This document shows, in pieces, positions 7,044 to 40,946 of a DNA stretch of 40,946 nt. The stretch is taken from contig JAFQPI010000028.1 in NCBI GenBank assembly GCA_017411805.1, forward strand, positions 1 to 40,946. The letters are read 5' to 3'. This DNA is from Clostridia bacterium (lineage in GTDB: Bacteria > Bacillota > Clostridia > Oscillospirales > CAG-272). The translations under genes and the position numbers were made by a program. Under the pieces are notes generated by a model. That model was given only the letters and a program-made list of their open reading frames with translations, was not told the origin of the DNA and did no database searches. The stretch's first letter is position 1. Each line of letters opens with the position of its first letter.

Positions 7044-7073
7044 ATCAAACTTTTATTCTTTTATATTCAATCG

Positions 7074-7142
7074 AAAATTTCCGAGCTTCGCGAGGAAATT
7101 CACCTTAACTCTGCACTCTGCATTCTTCACTCTGCACTCTCC
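7074..7142 (+). repeat. Palindrome plus heptamer composite repeat, copy 1
   Basis: AATTTCC (7076-7082) pairs with GGAAATT (7094-7100), with GAGCTTCGCGA between. CACCTTA follows, then five 7-base units, ACTCTGC, ACTCTGC, ATTCTTC, ACTCTGC, ACTCTCC (7108-7142). The heptamer block overlaps the 3' end of cysE, so the last residues and the stop codon of that gene are made of repeat. Confidence 0.8.
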
Positions 7143-10117: not shown

Positions 10118-10130
10118 TTTTAATTAAAAT

Positions 10131-10204
10131 GAAAATTTCCGAACGTAGTGAGGAAATTGACCTTCACTAGTCACTAGTCACTAGTCACTAGCCACTAGTC
10201 ACTC
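10131..10204 (+). repeat. Palindrome plus heptamer composite repeat, copy 2
   Basis: AATTTCC (10134-10140) pairs with GGAAATT (10152-10158), with GAACGTAGTGA between; GACCTT follows. Then come 7-base units CACTAGT (10165, 10172, 10179), CACTAGC (10186), CACTAGT (10193) and a partial CACT. The layout is the same as copy 1 but the heptamer is different. The stop codon of the kinase gene (TGA at 10205-10203) overlaps the last unit. Confidence 0.85.
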
Positions 10205-21432: not shown

Positions 21433-21888
21433 ATGAACCCTCAGATTCGCAGAGGAGATATATATTACGCAGATCTTTCGCCCGTTGTGGGCTCGGAGCA
21501 GGGCGGACTGCGCCCCGTGCTGATAATCCAGAACGACGTCGGCAACAAATACAGCCCGACCGTAATAGCCGCCGCGATCACCTCAAGAATGAGCAAAACG
21601 CGCCTGCCGACACATATCGACATATACGCCGAAAGCGCGGGGCTTGCGCGCGATTCAGTTATTCTTCTTGAGCAGATCCGCACGCTCGACAAACGCCGCC
21701 TGCGCGAGAGGATGGGTCATCTCGACGCCGCTATGATGGACCGCGTCAACAACGCCATAGCCGTCAGCTTCGGGATAATCATCCCGCCTGCGGAGACCTA
21801 TATTGAGGAGGAGGTACGGCCTGCGGCGGTGGCGGAGGTTACTATCGCGCAGGGGACGGGAGATGTTCCGCCACAGGCGGAGGGATGA
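21433..21888 (+). CDS. mazF: MazF/PemK-family mRNA endoribonuclease, orphan
   Basis: A 151-residue protein. The first about 117 residues match MazF/Endo[34 protein letters not shown], then the [13 protein letters not shown] region with catalytic R and T, and [14 protein letters not shown]. These toxins cleave single-stranded mRNA at short motifs. The usual upstream MazE-type antitoxin gene is missing: the 186 bases before it hold only promoters and an inverted repeat. The last about 30 residues are an Ala/Glu-rich tail not typical of the family. Its final codons come from a TCCGCC-ACA-GGCGGA hairpin that begins the repeat array downstream. Housekeeping EndoA in Firmicutes can be paired at a distance, so the antitoxin may be elsewhere. 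Confidence 0.9.
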
Positions 21889-21991
21889 GGAGATCGCTGC
21901 GCGAGTTAAGATCGGCTTGCGCCGAGTTAAGATCCGCCACGGGTGGAGTTAAGATCGCGCGCTGCGCGAGTTAAGATTCGCCTGCGGCGAA
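21867..21991. repeat. Variable-hairpin array A, linker GTTAAGA
   Basis: Six hairpins, the first inside mazF: TCCGCC-ACA-GGCGGA (21867-21881); TCGC-TGC-GCGA (21894-21904); TCGGC-TTGC-GCCGA (21912-21925); TCCGCC-ACG-GGTGGA (21933-21947); TCGCGC-GCT-GCGCGA (21955-21969); TTCGCC-TGC-GGCGAA (21977-21991). The last five are separated by identical GTTAAGA linkers at 21905, 21926, 21948 and 21970. Stems differ, but every stem starts with T and ends with A and the loop is 3-4 bases. Confidence 0.9.
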
Positions 21992-22025
21992 GTTTGAAGG
22001 TGAATTTCCGCACGCGGCAATTTTC
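21992..22025 (-). repeat. AATTTCC palindrome, diverged copy after array A
   Basis: AATTTCCGC, AC, GCGGCAATT (one mismatch), preceded by GTTTGAAGGTG. Read on the minus strand it has the GAAAATT...GGAAATTCACCTTC layout of the other copies, without heptamers. Confidence 0.65.
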
Positions 22026-22069
22026 GATAAAATAAAAAAACAACAACAGCGGGAAAGTTTTTGAAGATT

Positions 22070-22101
22070 CTTAAGGAACTTTTCTCAAAAAGTTCCTTAA
22101 G
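22070..22101. terminator. Perfect 14-bp hairpin
   Basis: CTTAAGGAACTTTT, CTCA loop, AAAAGTTCCTTAAG. It could end transcripts from mazF, although no T-run follows. It is equally well explained as another member of the local hairpin cluster. Confidence 0.45.
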
Positions 22102-22102
22102 T

Positions 22103-22222
22103 CGCCGCCCGCAGACGGCGCGAGATATATCGGCCGGTGCCGATACGATATATTGTTTGCTTTGGCAAACAATACGATATACTGCGCGGAGCGCGGTACG
22201 ATATGTTCCGCGTTGCGGAACA
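22103..22222. repeat. Variable-hairpin array B, linker CGATA
   Basis: CGCCG/CGGCG (22103-22120), TATCGGC-CGGT-GCCGATA (22128-22145), TATTGTTTGC-TTTG-GCAAACAATA (22151-22174), TACTGCGC-GGA-GCGCGGTA (22180-22198), TGTTCCGC-GTT-GCGGAACA (22204-22222). CGATA separates the last four units exactly (22146, 22175, 22199). The array stops seven bases before the -35 of the type I toxin promoter. Confidence 0.9.
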
Positions 22223-22228
22223 TTTTTG

Positions 22229-22257
22229 TTGACAAAGAATGTCGAATGTGATATAAT
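22229..22257 (+). promoter_or_regulatory. Consensus promoter of the toxin mRNA (RNA I)
   Basis: TTGACA (22229-22234), 17 bases, TATAAT (22252-22257). The transcript would start near 22264 and end at the terminator 22444-22487, about 225 bases. Confidence 0.92.
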
Positions 22258-22282
22258 AAGCGTGGCGAAAGCCCGTAGGAGT

Positions 22283-22294
22283 ACCATATCGGTG
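22283..22294 (+). repeat. Direct repeat DRa of the par-like module
   Basis: ACCATATCGGTG in the 5' leader of the toxin mRNA; 11 of 12 bases match DRb at 22506-22517. It is embedded in a longer segment (22274-22305) that is inverted at 22499-22525. Confidence 0.75.
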
Positions 22295-22365
22295 CGGTTG
22301 CTTCCTTCTATTTCGGAGGAAGTGTAGTCTTTTTTGCCTTCCTCCGCGAGGAGGGAGGTGGTAAT

Positions 22366-22452
22366 ATGGATGTTGTTACATGGCGCGACTTGATTGAGAT
22401 CGCTATCCTCGTAATTGCCATTATAACCTGTTTCAGAAACAAAAAAAGATAA
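22366..22452 (+). CDS. Small hydrophobic toxin, Fst/holin-like
   Basis: A 28-residue peptide starting MDVVTWRDLIEI, with a hydrophobic helix at about residues 9-22 (ILVIAIITC) and a positively charged end (RNKKR). Size and layout match the Fst-like and putative holin-like toxins of Firmicutes type I toxin-antitoxin systems, which act on the membrane. The ribosome site GGAGGGAGG (about 22350) can pair with CCTTCCTCC just upstream, so translation is probably shut off by a leader hairpin. The stop codon lies inside the left arm of the terminator. It is flanked by the convergent antitoxin RNA gene. The peptide has not been compared to any database here. Confidence 0.8.
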   Translation: MDVVTWRDLIEIAILVIAIITCFRNKKR

Positions 22453-22487
22453 CCGCCCTGCTTTGACCGGAAGAGCGGTTATCTTTT
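22444..22487. terminator. Shared bidirectional terminator of toxin and antitoxin RNAs
   Basis: AAAAGATAACCGC (22444-22456) pairs perfectly with GCGGTTATCTTTT (22475-22487). The 18-base loop contains TTGA, a possible U-turn (YUNR) motif for loop contact between the two RNAs. It has TTTT on the plus strand and seven T on the minus strand. Confidence 0.9.
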
Positions 22488-22505
22488 AATCGTTCGGGGG
22501 AAGCA

Positions 22506-22517
22506 ACCGTATCGGTG
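22506..22517 (+). repeat. Direct repeat DRb of the par-like module
   Basis: ACCGTATCGGTG, near the 5' end of the antitoxin RNA. Because the two RNAs are read from opposite strands, DRa and DRb become complementary in the transcripts. Confidence 0.75.
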
Positions 22518-22530
22518 CTCCTACGTTATT

Positions 22531-22559
22531 ATTATACACCGTTTTTTATATTTTGTCAA
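22531..22559 (-). promoter_or_regulatory. Consensus promoter of the antitoxin RNA
   Basis: Minus strand TTGACA (22559-22554), 17 bases, TATAAT (22536-22531). Confidence 0.92.
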
Positions 22560-22608
22560 TGCTTTTTAATTTTTTTCTCAAATAAGATAACAAACTTCCC
22601 CCAAGGAC

Positions 22609-22637
22609 TTGATTTTTTCGCAAAAAAAGTGTACAAT
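22609..22637 (+). promoter_or_regulatory. Promoter of the class II aldolase gene
   Basis: TTGATT (22609-22614), 17 bases, TACAAT (22632-22637), 38 bases before the start codon. Confidence 0.75.
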
Positions 22638-22675
22638 ATAGAGTGGAAATAAATTTACTCACAAGGAGACAAAAA

Positions 22676-23635
22676 ATGGCACTTGTAACAACCAAGGAAA
22701 TGTTCAAGAAGGCTTATGCCGGCGGTTACGCTATCGGCGCCTTCAACATTAACAACATGGAGATCATCCAGGCTATCACCGAGGCAGCTGCTGAGGAAAA
22801 GTCCCCCGTAGTTCTCCAGGTATCCGCAGGCGCACGTAAGTATGCTAAGCACGCATACCTTATGGGCCTTGCTCGCGCAGCAGTTGAAGACAGCGGCGTT
22901 GATTTCGCTCTTCACCTCGACCACGGAGCAGATTTTGAGATCTGTAAGTCCTGCATCGACGGCGGTTTCACCTCCGTTATGATCGACGGTTCTCACTTTG
23001 ACTATGAGGACAATATCGCTCTGACCAAGAAGGTCGTTGACTACGCCCATGAGCGCGGATGCGTCGTTGAGGGCGAGCTCGGCGTTCTTGCAGGCGTTGA
23101 GGATGACGTTGTAGCTGAGCACTCCTCCTACACCCGTCCCGATGAGGTTGAGGATTTCGTAACCCGTACAGGCGTTGACTCCCTCGCTATCTCCATCGGC
23201 ACATCCCACGGCGCATATAAGTTCACTCCCGCACAGTGCACAAGAAACGAAAAGGGCATCCTCGTTCCTCCTCCTCTCCGCTTCGACATCCTCGAAGAGA
23301 TCGGCAAGAGACTTCCCGAGTTCCCGATCGTTCTCCACGGTGCGTCCTCGGTTCCCCAGGAATACGTTGCAGAGATCAACGCCCTCGGCGGTCAGCTCCC
23401 CGATGCAGTAGGCATTCCCGAGGAGCAGCTTCGCCGCGCAGCTCAGATGGCTGTTTGTAAGATCAACATCGACTCCGACATCCGTCTCGCTATGACCGCA
23501 GGCATCCGCCGCGTTCTTACTCAGAATCCCGCAGCCTTCGACCCCAGAGATTACCTCAAGGTCGCTCGCGAGGAAGTCAAGAAGATGGTCCGCCACAAGA
23601 TCGTCAACGTGCTCGGCTCTTCCAATACCCTTTAA
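22676..23635 (+). CDS. fba: Class II fructose-bisphosphate aldolase
   Basis: A 319-residue zinc-dependent aldolase. Visible marks are FALHLDHGADF (catalytic D82, zinc H83), the glycine-rich ISIGTSHGAYK with a zinc histidine, PIVLHGASSVP with another, and KINIDSDIRLA near the end, which binds substrate phosphate. It splits fructose-1,6-bisphosphate into two triose phosphates in glycolysis; tagatose-bisphosphate activity cannot be excluded from sequence. ATG 22676 is used because AAGGAGACAAAA precedes it; the frame open from 22643 starts between the promoter and that site. Strongly biased codon use (CTC, CGC, GCA) suggests high expression. It has its own promoter and terminator. Confidence 0.95.
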   Translation: MALVTTKEMFKKAYAGGYAIGAFNINNMEIIQAITEAAAEEKSPVVLQVSAGARKYAKHAYLMGLARAAVEDSGVDFALHLDHGADFEICKSCIDGGFTSVMIDGSHFDYEDNIALTKKVVDYAHERGCVVEGELGVLAGVEDDVVAEHSSYTRPDEVEDFVTRTGVDSLAISIGTSHGAYKFTPAQCTRNEKGILVPPPLRFDILEEIGKRLPEFPIVLHGASSVPQEYVAEINALGGQLPDAVGIPEEQLRRAAQMAVCKINIDSDIRLAMTAGIRRVLTQNPAAFDPRDYLKVAREEVKKMVRHKIVNVLGSSNTL

Positions 23636-23644
23636 TTTCGTTTG

Positions 23645-23679
23645 CGGAGCAACGTCTTTTTGGCGTTGCTCCGATTTTA
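23645..23679. terminator. Terminator of the aldolase gene
   Basis: CGGAGCAACG pairs with CGTTGCTCCG (10 bp, 9-base loop), followed by ATTTTAT, 9 bases past the stop. Confidence 0.85.
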
Positions 23680-23707
23680 TATTTAACTGCTATCTGAGTT
23701 TTTATTA

Positions 23708-23785
23708 TCGGGCTTTGCCCGAGATAATATCTCGCTTGCGCGATATTAACTTGCCGTAGGCAATATTAACTCCGCCGAAGGCGGA
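23708..23785. repeat. Variable-hairpin array E, linker TATTAAC (GTTAATA)
   Basis: TCGGGC-TTT-GCCCGA (23708-23722); TCTCG/CGCGA with AATAT flanks (23730-23743, one mismatch); TTGCC-GTA-GGCAA (23751-23763); TCCGCC-GAA-GGCGGA (23771-23785). The linker TATTAAC is identical at 23744-23750 and 23764-23770. Read on the minus strand it is GTTAATA, one base from the GTTAAGA linker of arrays A and C. Confidence 0.85.
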
Positions 23786-23813
23786 CAGCAAATTTTTTAA
23801 AGGAAAACAGACT

Positions 23814-24566
23814 ATGATAAAGTACGGAATTCAGACGGGCAAGCAGAACGCTGACCCGACAGCCATGTTCGAGGCTGTCAAGAGAGCGGGCTTTGATGCC
23901 GTCCTCGTCAGTCTCAGCGGCACCTTTGACAACGACCGTCAGATCGAGATCATCCGCCGCGTCGGTCTTGAGATCGACAACTGCCATTCCCCCTGGAACG
24001 ACATCAACCACCTCTGGCGAGATACCCTCAAGGGTCAGGGCGCATACGAAATGCTCCGTGACAATCTCATCGAATGCGGTAAATACTGCATTCCCCGCGC
24101 GGTATGGCACGTTTCCTCGGGCAACAACTATCCTCCCATCTCTCAGATAGGAATGGATCGCGTTGCCTCCCTCATCGAGGTCGCTGACAAAGCGAACGTC
24201 GATATTTGCCTTGAAAATCAGAGATTCTTCCATTTTATAGATTACATATACGCCCATCTCGACTGCCCCCGCCTCAAATTCTGCTATGACAGCGGACACG
24301 AGGCATGCTTCTCGCAGACGAGGCTCGCGCTGCCGAAGTACAGACATAAGCTCGCGGCACTCCATCTGCACGACAACAGCGGAGTTTACAATTCCGACGA
24401 TCATCTCCTACCCGGACGCGGCACGGGCGTCGACTGGGATTACGTCCGCAAAAATCTTGAGGGCTACGAGGGTGTCATCTCGCTTGAGGTAAAGAGGATC
24501 CCCGAGATGAGCCTCGACGAATTCTACGCCGCGGCATACGAAGCTGCAAAATTTGTTAAATCATAA
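23814..24566 (+). CDS. Sugar phosphate isomerase/epimerase-like TIM barrel
   Basis: A 250-residue protein of the xylose isomerase-like (AP endonuclease 2) TIM-barrel family. Candidate metal ligands are in ICLENQRF (Glu), KFCYDSGHE (Asp, His), LHLHDN (His) and the final ISLEVKRI (Glu). Such proteins isomerise or epimerise sugars and related hydroxy acids in the cytoplasm. The substrate is not determinable. The secreted beta-helix gene follows 9 bases later and a second barrel follows that, so the three form an operon, probably for a carbohydrate released outside the cell. AAGGAAAAC precedes the ATG. Confidence 0.82.
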   Translation: MIKYGIQTGKQNADPTAMFEAVKRAGFDAVLVSLSGTFDNDRQIEIIRRVGLEIDNCHSPWNDINHLWRDTLKGQGAYEMLRDNLIECGKYCIPRAVWHVSSGNNYPPISQIGMDRVASLIEVADKANVDICLENQRFFHFIDYIYAHLDCPRLKFCYDSGHEACFSQTRLALPKYRHKLAALHLHDNSGVYNSDDHLLPGRGTGVDWDYVRKNLEGYEGVISLEVKRIPEMSLDEFYAAAYEAAKFVKS

Positions 24567-29614: not shown

Positions 29615-29887
29615 ATGCAAAGCTTCAACCATACACTGAACTGCGTCGGAGGACTTCACGCGCGCCCCGCAGGAGTTATCGTCAACGCCGCAAAGCAGTT
29701 TTCATCCGATATACTGATCAGAAAGCTCTCGGCAGAGGGCGCAAAGGAAGCCGATGCCAAGCGACTGATCTCGCTTATGAGCCTTGGGGCGCGGCGCGGC
29801 GAAACGATCACTTTTTATATCAACGGCCCCGATGAAAGCATGGCGGCAGAAAAGCTTCAGGCTCTCTGCCGCGAGATGGTGGGATAA
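29615..29887 (+). CDS. ptsH: HPr phosphocarrier protein, Ser46 position replaced
   Basis: A 90-residue HPr that carries phosphate from enzyme I to the sugar-specific EIIA. The active site is GGLHARPAG with H15. ATG 29615 is preferred over GTG 29606 because the GGAAAGG site is then 8 bases away and His falls at position 15. In Gram-positive HPr a serine (Ser46, in LKSIMGVMSLG) is phosphorylated by HPr kinase. Here the matching segment reads AKRLISLMSLG, so the position is Arg50; the region before it has four extra residues. ptsI overlaps its stop by one base. No clear promoter was found in the 138 bases between it and the divergent glycosidase gene. Confidence 0.92.
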   Translation: MQSFNHTLNCVGGLHARPAGVIVNAAKQFSSDILIRKLSAEGAKEADAKRLISLMSLGARRGETITFYINGPDESMAAEKLQALCREMVG

Positions 29888-31530
29888 TGAACAGCATCGC
29901 AAAGCCCTCGCTTTTCCGTGGCATCGGCATCGGCGAGACGGCTGTTTACGGCAAGATCCGATTTATCGGCGAAAAGAAACCTGCACCCGAGCGAAAAAGC
30001 CGCGGTGCCGCGGCAGAAAAGCGCGAATTTGATGCCGCTCTGACTCAAGCGCGCGCCGAGACCTCGGCTCTTTACAGAAAAACTCTTGCCGCGGCGGGCA
30101 AGGAGGCGGCGTCGATCTTTGAAATCCACGAAATGCTGCTCTGCGATCCCGATTTCATCGATCTTGTACATTCGGGAATATCAAAGGGTCTCTCGGCTCC
30201 CGATGCCGTCCGCGAGGCGGGCGAGTCGCTTGCGGGGATATTCGAGGGGCTTGAGGACGAATATCTCTCCGCGCGTGCCGCCGATATGCGCGATATTTCC
30301 TCGCGCGTCTGCTCGATCATCACGGGCGGAGAGGACGAGCGCGAGGGCGACGGCTCACCCGAGATCATCGTCTGCCGCGATCTGACACCGGGCGACACCG
30401 TAAAGCTTGACACCGAGAGAGTTGCGGGATTTGTCACCTTTGCGGGCTCGGTCAACTCGCACACCGCCATCCTTGCACGCGCAATGGATATACCCGCCCT
30501 CATCCGCGCCGAGGAATTCGGGCCCGAACTTGACGGCGCACCCGCCATCCTCGATGCGCAAGCGGCAAGTCTTTCGGTCAATCCGACGCCCGAGGAGATG
30601 CTGAAGCTTGCCGAAAGTCTTCAGCGCCGCGAGGCTGAGCGCAGCCGCCTGCGTACTCTCGCCGCCCTCCCCGCAGTTACTAAAAGCGGACGGAGGATCG
30701 CGCTCTACGCCAATATCGGATCTACAGCCGAGGCTGAGGCGGCTTATCGGGCGGGCGCGGAGGGGATCGGTCTCTTCCGAAGCGAATTTCTTTTCATCGG
30801 ACGCGACGATCTGCCGGGCGAGGAGGAGCAATTCGAGGCTTACCGAGACGTGGCAAGCCTTTTTGCAGACCGAGCGGGTCCCGTCGTTATCCGCACCCTC
30901 GATATCGGCGCGGACAAATCGCTTCCTGCGCTCAGACTTGACGCCGAGGAAAACCCCGCGCTCGGAATGAGGGGGATACGTCTCTGTCTTTCCCGCCCCG
31001 AGCTCTTCCGCACGCAGATCCGCGCGATCCTTCGCGCATCCGCATACGGAAAGACGGCGATCATGCTCCCGATGATCACCTGCTCGGACGAGATCGCGCG
31101 GACGAAGCGCATCATTTCCGAGGAAAAGAACCGCCTACGCTTTGAGGAGGTTGCATTTGACGAGTCTATCGGACTCGGGATAATGATCGAGACGCCCGCC
31201 GCCGCGATCATGGCGCACGAGCTTGCGCGCGAATGCGACTTTTTCTCGGTCGGAACGAACGATCTTTTCCAATACACCCTCGCCGCAGATCGCCAGAATC
31301 ACAGGCTTGCATATCTCGAGGAGGGCGGCGTCGAGCCCGTTATGCGCCTGATCAAGCTCGCGTCCGAGGGCATCCACTCGGCGGGAGAAGACAAATGGCT
31401 CGGCATCTGCGGCGAGATGGCGGCGGACGTCAAATTGACCGAAACCCTCCTTGCCGCGGGCGCGGACGAGCTCTCCGTCTCACCGCCCTATCTTTCGAGG
31501 ATCAAGGACAGGGTGAGGGGAATAGATTAA
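29887..31530 (+). CDS. ptsI: PTS enzyme I (phosphoenolpyruvate-protein phosphotransferase)
   Basis: A 547-residue protein that takes phosphate from PEP and passes it to HPr. The phosphorylated histidine is H192 in GSVNSHTAILARAMDIP. The C-terminal PEP-binding barrel has GIGLFRSEFLF, ALGMRGIRLCL, DFFSVGTNDLFQYTLAADR and the catalytic cysteine in LGICGEMAAD. It is slightly shorter than the about 570 residues of well-known forms. ATG 29887 shares its A with the ptsH stop. The TAA at 31528-31530 is immediately followed by the first GTTAAGA linker of a hairpin array and then a mobile element, which separate it from the EIIA gene. Confidence 0.95.
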   Translation: MNSIAKPSLFRGIGIGETAVYGKIRFIGEKKPAPERKSRGAAAEKREFDAALTQARAETSALYRKTLAAAGKEAASIFEIHEMLLCDPDFIDLVHSGISKGLSAPDAVREAGESLAGIFEGLEDEYLSARAADMRDISSRVCSIITGGEDEREGDGSPEIIVCRDLTPGDTVKLDTERVAGFVTFAGSVNSHTAILARAMDIPALIRAEEFGPELDGAPAILDAQAASLSVNPTPEEMLKLAESLQRREAERSRLRTLAALPAVTKSGRRIALYANIGSTAEAEAAYRAGAEGIGLFRSEFLFIGRDDLPGEEEQFEAYRDVASLFADRAGPVVIRTLDIGADKSLPALRLDAEENPALGMRGIRLCLSRPELFRTQIRAILRASAYGKTAIMLPMITCSDEIARTKRIISEEKNRLRFEEVAFDESIGLGIMIETPAAAIMAHELARECDFFSVGTNDLFQYTLAADRQNHRLAYLEEGGVEPVMRLIKLASEGIHSAGEDKWLGICGEMAADVKLTETLLAAGADELSVSPPYLSRIKDRVRGID

Positions 31531-31593
31531 GTTAAGATCTCGCTTCGCGAGAGTTAAGATCGGCTTGCGCCGAGTTAAGATTGCCAAAGGCAA
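31531..31593. repeat. Variable-hairpin array C, linker GTTAAGA
   Basis: GTTAAGA (31531) TCTCGC-TTC-GCGAGA (31538-31552); GTTAAGA (31553) TCGGC-TTGC-GCCGA (31560-31573, identical to one unit of array A); GTTAAGA (31574) TTGCC-AAA-GGCAA (31581-31593). The array starts on the base after the ptsI stop codon. GTTTAATG and an AATTTCC palindrome follow. Confidence 0.9.
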
Positions 31594-31600
31594 GTTTAAT

Positions 31601-31639
31601 GAAAATTTCCGAGCGAAACGACGGAAATTTACCTTCCAC
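31601..31639 (+). repeat. Palindrome plus tail composite repeat, copy 3
   Basis: AATTTCCGAGCG and CGACGGAAATT form the palindrome (about 31604-31628), followed by TACCTTCCAC. The following TAG is shared with the mobile element that starts at 31640, so the heptamer part seems interrupted or replaced by that insertion. Confidence 0.75.
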
Positions 31640-31917
31640 TAGCCGTACGGGAATCGAACCTAATTGCCTCATGGCGATTACTTTTCGCGTCTTTCGGCGT
31701 GTTTTTACTCGCAAGGTTAATACCTTGCTTCGCAAAATCCCACCAAAATCCATCAAAAATTAATTCGCCGTGAGGTGTGAGCAGTTTTGACGGAGCAGAT
31801 TTTTTCGAGAACAAAGTTCTTTCCGACGATCATATATTAATATTATCAAGGAAAGAACTGCAGTTATCGAGAAAATCTGCCCGACAAAACCAATTTGGTT
31901 CGATTCTCGTACGGCTA
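31640..31917. mobile_element. TA-flanked MITE with tRNA-like ends, complete copy
   Basis: A 278-base element bounded by TAGCCGTACGGGAATCGAAC on the left and its inverse, GGTTCGATTCTCGTACGGCTA (21 bases at 31897-31917; first 20 shown by position), on the right. The TA at each end looks like a target duplication, as in IS630/Tc1-type transposition. Inside, TAATTGCCTCATGGCGATTA faces TTAATTCGCCGTGAGG, and two 42-base arms (31783-31824 and 31850-31891) form a long imperfect hairpin. No transposase is encoded. The ends contain GGTTCGATTC, the tRNA T-loop (B-box) motif, but no full tRNA can fold. It sits between ptsI and the EIIA gene, 25 bases before the latter's start. Confidence 0.85.
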
Positions 31918-31942
31918 GACTAAAAAAACGTCAGAGGTAAAA

Positions 31943-34537: not shown

Positions 34538-34603
34538 ATTTACCCAACTATCGTTTATAGAAAAACGATGGTTTATTAAAGTAAAACATAATTATTGTAT
34601 TTC

Positions 34604-34688
34604 TAATTTCCGAGCGTAGCGAAGGAAATTTTCCATAACTCTGCATTCTGCACTCTGCACTCTGCACTTTTTATGCTCTGCACTTTTC
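34604..34688 (+). repeat. Palindrome plus heptamer composite repeat, copy 4
   Basis: AATTTCCGAGCG/CGAAGGAAATT (34604-34630), TTCCATA, then ACTCTGC (34638), ATTCTGC (34645), ACTCTGC (34652), ACTCTGC (34659), then ACTTTTTATGCTCTGCACTT. The heptamer is that of copy 1, 27 kb away, not that of copy 2. Confidence 0.8.
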
Positions 34689-40805: not shown

Positions 40806-40946
40806 TAGCCGTACGGGAGTCGAACCTAATTGCCTCACGGCGATTACTTTTCGCGTATTTCGGCGTGCTTTTACTCGCAAGGTTAATACCTTGCTTCGCA
40901 AAATCCCACCAAAATCCATCAAAAATTAATTCGCCGTGAGGTGCGA
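40806..40946. mobile_element. TA-flanked MITE with tRNA-like end, second copy (cut by window end)
   Basis: The 141 bases from TAGCCGTACGGGAGTCGAAC to the window end match 31640-31780 with five substitutions and no gaps (about 96%). The insertion lies within the metallophosphoesterase gene at a TA. Confidence 0.88.

Follow-up and report, generated by a model that had tools for sequence, protein, structure and literature searches.

REP and BIME repeats are described as short intergenic palindromes with an unpaired GTAG or CGTC tag, which occur many times per genome, lie largely downstream of genes and often stand close together in opposite orientation; RAYT is absent from some REP families (PMC3733652). 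Dispersed intergenic hairpins are also reported from organelles, i.e. RHE of sponges (PMC2800124) as well as LIMP and HyLIMP of Lobosphaera (PMC4524435). At the level of the single DNA hairpin, hairpins that have a GNA or GNNA loop and two or more G-C pairs are presented as extraordinarily stable mini-hairpins (PMC4686876). The small hairpins in the early promoters of phage N4 extrude at physiological supercoiling, which in vivo depends on gyrase and requires a G:C pair closing the loop plus the G and the A of the loop, while stem positions that are not conserved may carry any bases that keep the pairing (PMC4496689). Of the elements found in the open-licence literature, the REP/BIME repeats and the organelle hairpin elements come nearest to the element described here, which we observe in some gut Clostridia and in which near-perfect hairpins of changing sequence are strung together beside genes by a short spacer that is nearly constant within a species.

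The window, i.e. the whole stretch of 40,946 nucleotides that was analysed, is one entire contig of the draft genome G000 (2.46 Mb, 84.7% complete); the sister species is labelled G010, and G001, G005 and G009 are further members of the genus. Three hairpin arrays with a constant linker had been predicted in the window, and all three are present at the predicted positions:

21433-21888, open reading frame: MazF/PemK gene (PF02452)
21894..21991, + strand: array A, five hairpins and four GTTAAGA linkers, starting 5 bases past the MazF/PemK stop
21894-21904, 21912-21925, 21933-21947, 21955-21969 and 21977-21991, + strand: the hairpins of array A
21992..22024, + strand: tail of array A, GTTTGAAGGTG and an AATTTCC hairpin, with one mispair in G000
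23708..23785, - strand: array B, four hairpins with two GTTAATA linkers and a nine-base variant
29887-31530, open reading frame: gene of a PEP-utilising enzyme (ptsI-like), directly before array C
31531..31593, + strand: array C, three GTTAAGA linkers with a hairpin after each
31538-31552, 31560-31573 and 31581-31593, + strand: the hairpins of array C, with linkers at 31531, 31553 and 31574
31594..31630, + strand: tail of array C, GTTTAATGAA and an AATTTCC hairpin

As the original prediction had it, arrays A and C have the stem TCGGC-TTGC-GCCGA in common, both continue into GTTT and then the AATTTCC hairpin, and array C starts on the base after the ptsI stop. Array A, said to start inside mazF, actually begins after the stop of that gene; the hairpin at 21868-21882 within the gene is joined to the array by no linker. 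Of the stems described as perfect, one in array A (TCCGCC-ACG-GGTGGA) has a G-T mispair, and GTTAATA is correct for two linkers of array B, the third being the nine-base variant (GATAATATC on the + strand). The first hairpin of array B lies 28 bases upstream of the start codon of the open reading frame at 23814. Across the window GTTAAKAT occurs 11 times against 1.82 expected, a count reached in 0 of 100 shuffles.

Besides the arrays, the window carries other repeated sequences. An element of about 350 nt (22219-22573) has a promoter-like TTGACA/TATAAT, inverted ends (CCGTAGGAGTACC / GGTGCTCCTACG) and an open reading frame for 28 hydrophobic residues; it has copies in G001 and G010 and resembles, by eye, a type I toxin-like gene for a small membrane peptide. 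A repeat of about 280 nt with inverted ends like the 3' end of a tRNA (31640-31920 and 40806-40946), possibly a MITE-like element, adjoins array C and is found in many copies in G000 and G005 and in some in G010 and G001, several of them at contig ends. Hairpin blocks of a second type, with variable stems and recurring loops (TTCA, AGA/GGA), are represented by 22053-22120, lie downstream of many arrays and have many copies in G001 and G010. At 22120-22228 a further hairpin string with the linker (T)ACGATAT can be made out by eye, and CGATAT-type strings also occur in G009. Finally, at 7060-7138, 10118-10196 and 34590-34668 the AATTTCC palindrome is followed by short tandem repeats (CTCTGCA and CACTAGT types).

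With REP/BIME repeats the arrays share an intergenic location that is mostly 3' of genes, but their stems vary from unit to unit (88 distinct sequences among 182 inner units) while linker and pairing persist, their linkers are GTTAAGA, GTTAATG, GTTAATA, GTTAAGG and variants instead of GTAG or CGTC, and the Y1 transposase (PF01797) was not found in G000 at its 84.7% completeness. Lacking the REP tag, a conserved palindrome and, in this draft, the transposase, the arrays are thus classed among the intergenic palindromic repeats and not as REP. CRISPR arrays consist of constant repeats of about 20-40 nt and unique, non-palindromic spacers, whereas here the constant part has 7 nt and the variable parts are palindromic and recurring. 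Folded integron attC sites have core triplets as well as extrahelical bases, whereas 166 of the 182 inner units are short perfect hairpins free of extrahelical bases. An intrinsic terminator is a GC hairpin directly before a T run, whereas the inner units are followed by linkers of the GTTAAGA type; the tail hairpin may nevertheless be a terminator, as may some of the first hairpins, of which those at L072, L073, L075, L105 and L107 resemble, by eye, the gene's own terminator.

The organelle elements resemble the arrays in being dispersed intergenic hairpins, and in HyLIMP a change in one arm of the stem usually has its counterpart in the opposite arm (PMC4524435); LIMP, however, is described as having stems of a fixed repeat and a loop in both orientations (PMC4524435), and no array of free stems on a constant linker was found described for either group (PMC2800124, PMC4524435). 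The C-G-closed GNA and GNNA loops that the arrays carry on one strand recall the DNA mini-hairpins, which are described as oligonucleotides and parts of aptamers (PMC4686876), whereas here they form chromosomal arrays. As in the small inverted repeats of the N4 promoters, the loop-closing pair and the G and A of the loop matter and the other stem bases are free if paired; for the N4 hairpins, which are phage promoters serving one RNA polymerase, extrusion is reported (PMC4496689), whereas for the arrays it is a proposal. Within the open-licence literature, judged by titles and the openings of abstracts, no description of such arrays was found.

The pairing of the two stem arms was quantified for 75 arrays from 53 loci (the window and L065-L116), which were cut at the linkers into units of which only the first T and the last A were demanded. 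Among the 182 inner units, 819 of 840 pairs are Watson-Crick (97.5%), whereas exchanging right arms between units of equal length gives 67.4% and at most 72.3% in 1000 exchanges; the covariation of stem arms that had been proposed is thereby confirmed. Units of 15 bases illustrate the freedom of the stem, with pairs 3, 4 and 5 taking four, four and three Watson-Crick types, and their five column pairs of highest mutual information are all symmetric, four being base pairs and one, at columns 7-9, a position within the loop and not a base pair. Arrays of two other species behave alike: pairing reaches 98.1% in G001 (32 units; 69.2% after arm exchange) and 97.6% in G005 (29 units; 75.6%), in sets drawn from the loci of 30 of the 51 and 29 of the 45 linker matches, plus stretches, and comprising 16 and 12 arrays after removal of duplicates. 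The mispairs among the 840 pairs are 3 G-T, 4 A-C and 14 others. For RNA stems, the general assumption is that compensatory changes go via G-U (PMC8794818). With G-T so scarce, and in no excess over A-C, the data seem to favour perfect copying at the DNA level.

The loops follow a strand-specific rule. Read along the linker, triloops are TNC in 133 of 185 cases and GNA in 2, and four-base loops are TNNC in 31 of 38 and GNNA in none; 132 of the 133 TNC loops are closed by a C-G pair. Counting each distinct unit once, TNC accounts for 47 and GNA for 2 of 76 triloops, and TNNC for 11 and GNNA for 0 of 18 four-base loops. On the strand opposite to the linker the loops are cGNAg and cGNNAg, and of the 223 loops that have 3 or 4 nt, 164 fit GNA or GNNA on this one strand and 59 do not; the triloops other than TNC (52 of 185) often sit on TCGCGC stems. 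Since the middle base of the loop is free and the rule is valid at both loop lengths, it looks like a structural rule of the other strand. In a sample of G000, hairpins of at least 6 bp outside arrays have GNA or TNC in 44 of 245 triloops, and those merely beside a linker-like string in 25 of 65, which is below the parsed arrays. A scan of further loci that ignored the linker yielded 29 arrays, of which 28 belong to this genus, including some G010 arrays that also enter the counts above, and one to a different genus. As these were oriented by their majority loop, the count of 87 vs 2 measures agreement of loops within arrays, and the independent part is that the linkers then read consistently, all 12 types starting with a purine and T when loops are oriented as TNC (GTGATAA, ATGATATA, GTGAAAT, ATGGTTA and GTGATGA among them). 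Nearest-neighbour DNA energies are equal on both strands for 189 of 226 units and better on the antisense strand for 33, worse for 4; these tables apparently do not credit GNA triloops with extra stability.

An important question is whether it is the DNA or its transcript that is held to this structure, and an RNA function at gene ends is the main rival to a DNA hairpin reading. The arrays would then be strings of hairpins in transcribed UTRs that end, protect or space transcripts, with selection keeping RNA pairing and independent folding while the sequence drifts through compensatory changes. This explanation, which we consider unlikely though clearly to be reckoned with, draws on the location at gene borders. 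Gene context was taken from a simple longest-ORF caller for arrays of G000 and G010 (7 of 73 with overlapping open reading frames set aside, and two G005 arrays left out), and of the resulting 66 arrays 44 start at the 3' end of a gene and 20 at a 5' end, while no open reading frame was found for the other 2. The idea that units are added at gene 3' ends is thus partly right, and the 20 speak against RNA-level elements. Distances were measured to the first linker, and across the four groups the medians are 23 to 66.5 nt between the gene and that linker and 145 to 306.5 nt between the last linker and the gene that follows. In 49 of 75 arrays a perfect hairpin of 4 bp or more ends exactly at the first linker, in 60 a hairpin follows the last linker, and in 46 an AATTTC-like tail lies within 40 nt. 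There are 9 cases of two arrays with GTTAAKR-type linkers within 500 nt, and in all 9 the arrays face each other.

Also on the side of RNA are the terminator-like look of some first hairpins, judged by eye, and the choice of neighbouring units. Under RNA energies, 63 arrays fold as drawn to 0.766, whereas arrays with swapped units reach 0.629 (maximum of 200, 0.704), which could mean selection at the RNA level, and the better folding persists when repeated stems are kept out on both sides (0.788 vs 0.703, P 0.017; 60 arrays, 120 swaps). In GTTAAKR arrays a stem is repeated within the array in only 3 of 155 pairs, with 13.4 expected or, with position kept, 12.2 and 12.7 (P 0.001 and 0.00025), while repeated loops are not avoided (25 vs 29). 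The avoidance of repeated stems does not reach significance in G001 (1 vs 1.9) or in the short G005 arrays (0 vs 0.7), and facing arrays show none (6 vs 3.9). Taken together, better folding and stem avoidance reflect either selection on folding or a loss of identical neighbours. Against the RNA explanation stand the scarcity of G-T pairs (3, vs 4 A-C, of 840) and a loop polarity that is identical at gene 3' ends (TTC 38, GAA 0) and 5' ends (TTC 19, GAA 0), i.e. independent of the direction of transcription. Moreover, linkers are uniform within a species and different at the same sites, and the window is without an Rfam match. The original prediction had offered selection for RNA structure as one possible cause; the data do not favour it, as loop polarity and the near-absence of G-T wobble together favour turnover of whole units at the DNA level over RNA covariation.

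The arrays belong to a genome-wide population, as had been suspected from three loci. The pattern GTTAAGATN{8,22}GTTAAGAT has 26 matches in the G000 genome and none in the reversed control, and in 25 of the 26, read by eye, the stem is perfect over 4 bp or more. A looser linker pattern matches 76 times in G000, 68 times in G010, 3 times in G005 and not in the remaining ten genus genomes, its reversed control giving 0 in twelve genus genomes and 1 in G009; as this pattern prescribes T-Y and R-A as the two ends, the outer pairs are partly built in, and the inner pairs are free of constraint. Ignoring the linker, a scan of 440,529 bases of G000 (20 stretches and the window) found 18 strict arrays, some with other linkers (GTGAAAT, ATTCCATA, TATATCAT), and 0 in its control, a single copy with the bases shuffled within 200-base blocks. 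The same arrays as in G010 and G005 also appear under the Clostridia drafts RGIG1801 (goat cecum) and RGIG9562 (yak colon), respectively. Farther out, GCTTCGCN{10,20}GCTTCGC matches in 82 of 299 genomes across the phylum, where the listed matches outside G000 are not array-like by eye, and in 110 of 146 genomes of the family, where the control also matches in many and a clear excess is seen in few (G026, G009, G431).

Comparison of the same gene borders in different species shows what changes and what stays. At sites S1, S2, S3, A, B and C, arrays occupy the same border in three or four of G000, G010, G001 and G005. The flanks of site A are nearly identical in G000 and G010, yet the two genomes have different hairpins and linkers at unit 3 and disagree in two loops. 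Site A thus supports the proposal that units change as whole hairpins, while other sites look like gain and loss of units, differ totally or are unchanged: L075 and L105 are identical, L082 and L161 retain inner stems, L086 and L088 differ by an apparent gain of one unit and loss of another, L078 and L111 have common stems in different order with different loops, and L079/L095, L080/L095 and site C have little in common. At S1, G010 and G005 have conserved the first hairpin (TCACGC), the last hairpin (TTTCCGC) and the tail, whereas the two species differ in their linkers and inner hairpins. Site C is without an array in G005, and site A has only a remnant there, which carries GTGATAA and not the usual linker of G005. 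GTGATAA occurs 51 times in G001 and 0 times in the other twelve genus genomes; ATGGTTA occurs 45 times in G005, once in G000 and not in the other eleven. The place is thus often kept and the interior rewritten, with linkers uniform per species. Long arrays of G005 and G001 contain repeated blocks of two or three units, which suggests that tandem block duplication also occurs; one of them (L153, G005:C96, 1476-1823), with stems of period three (TCCGC, TCGGC, TCGGC) and scattered mispairs, looks like such a duplication followed by point mutation.

Such patchy, polar and abundant units could also be a selfish, REP-like intergenic repeat, moved in trans by a putative single-strand transposase or recombinase that would recognise hairpin shape and bring the host no benefit. 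We regard this as improbable. Unit polarity, high copy number and patchy occurrence among the genomes of the genus would fit it, as would linker subfamilies in several species and the exclusively facing pairs (9 vs 0 vs 0), but the occupation of the same sites in three or four species would demand a strong site preference, PF01797 was found in none of G000, G001 and G009, and viral contigs gave no exact match for two linker patterns. PF01797 is present in 3 of 13 genus genomes, including the array-bearing G010 and G005. Reverse transcription, a mechanism suggested in the original prediction, has as its candidate PF00078, with two matches in the array-bearing G010 and none in the array-bearing G000, G001, G005 and G009. 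As these genes were not found in several array-bearing drafts, all of them incomplete (72-92% complete), both Y1/RAYT transposition and reverse transcription are rejected as makers of the arrays. Carriage by viral contigs is rejected on the 0 exact matches for the two linker patterns.

Similarly improbable, in our judgement, is a pure mutation process in which replication template switching at small palindromes copies one arm onto the other without any function and slippage between linkers lets arrays grow and shrink. Stems are reported to arise and to be restored by template switching (PMC8794818), which offers a route for arms changing together; by itself, switching gives neither constant linkers nor one-way loops. 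Joint change of the arms, the few mispairs and the duplicated blocks in the long G005 and G001 arrays would follow from it, but it leaves the species-wide linkers and the loop rule unexplained, inverted loops being almost absent (133 vs 2), and there is no significant sign of copying from the local flank (upstream, P 0.08; downstream, 2 close matches vs 7.1 expected), a source that we reject after this negative result, although unit 3 of array A resembles, by eye, a hairpin within the end of mazF. Chance is ruled out by the shuffles, the reversed controls and the linker-blind scan, and a known Rfam family is rejected as well, as Rfam 15 gave no match in the window at gathering score and, for 21500-24000, six weak matches, none of which reached the cut-off.

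Overall, near-perfect pairing, covariation, polarity, position at gene borders, shared sites with replaced interiors and species-specific linkers are observed, and we account for them, with moderate confidence, by DNA hairpin units of fixed polarity that are turned over as wholes, together with a putative factor that reads the linker. What is preserved would be the hairpin structure and the species-typical 7-base linker, with the sequence of the stem mostly free. Units would be copied, swapped and lost as whole hairpins via single-stranded DNA or by copying based on replication; each new unit would then be paired on arrival. The putative factor would recognise the linker from its sequence and the hairpin from its structure, and would homogenise linkers throughout the genome. 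On the strand antisense to the linker, the mostly C-G-closed GNA and GNNA loops belong to the class that forms extra-stable DNA mini-hairpins and is able to extrude in phage N4 promoters; the units would extrude as mini-cruciforms at gene borders, where they may absorb supercoiling or dock a protein.

A more far-reaching version, which we put forward tentatively and think rather unlikely, is that the arrays represent a new class of bacterial chromosomal element, i.e. gene-border arrays of supercoil-extrudable cGNAg DNA hairpins that are rewritten by a putative trans-acting machine, which would recognise hairpin shape and supply or check the species-specific linker. If such a machine is at work, a single change in it would re-tag the linkers genome-wide, much as a changed telomerase template does with telomere repeats. 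Usual repeats diverge or homogenise as whole units; here the linker is near-uniform per genome and the stem largely free, and while the linker differs between sister species at the same sites, the stem keeps near-perfect pairing and obeys a loop rule on one strand. The arrays thus separate the copying of sequence from the keeping of structure. With many natural replicates in each genome, they bear on how perfect hairpins arise, on whether hairpins of chromosomal DNA, and not of RNA, are selected, and on what recognises them.
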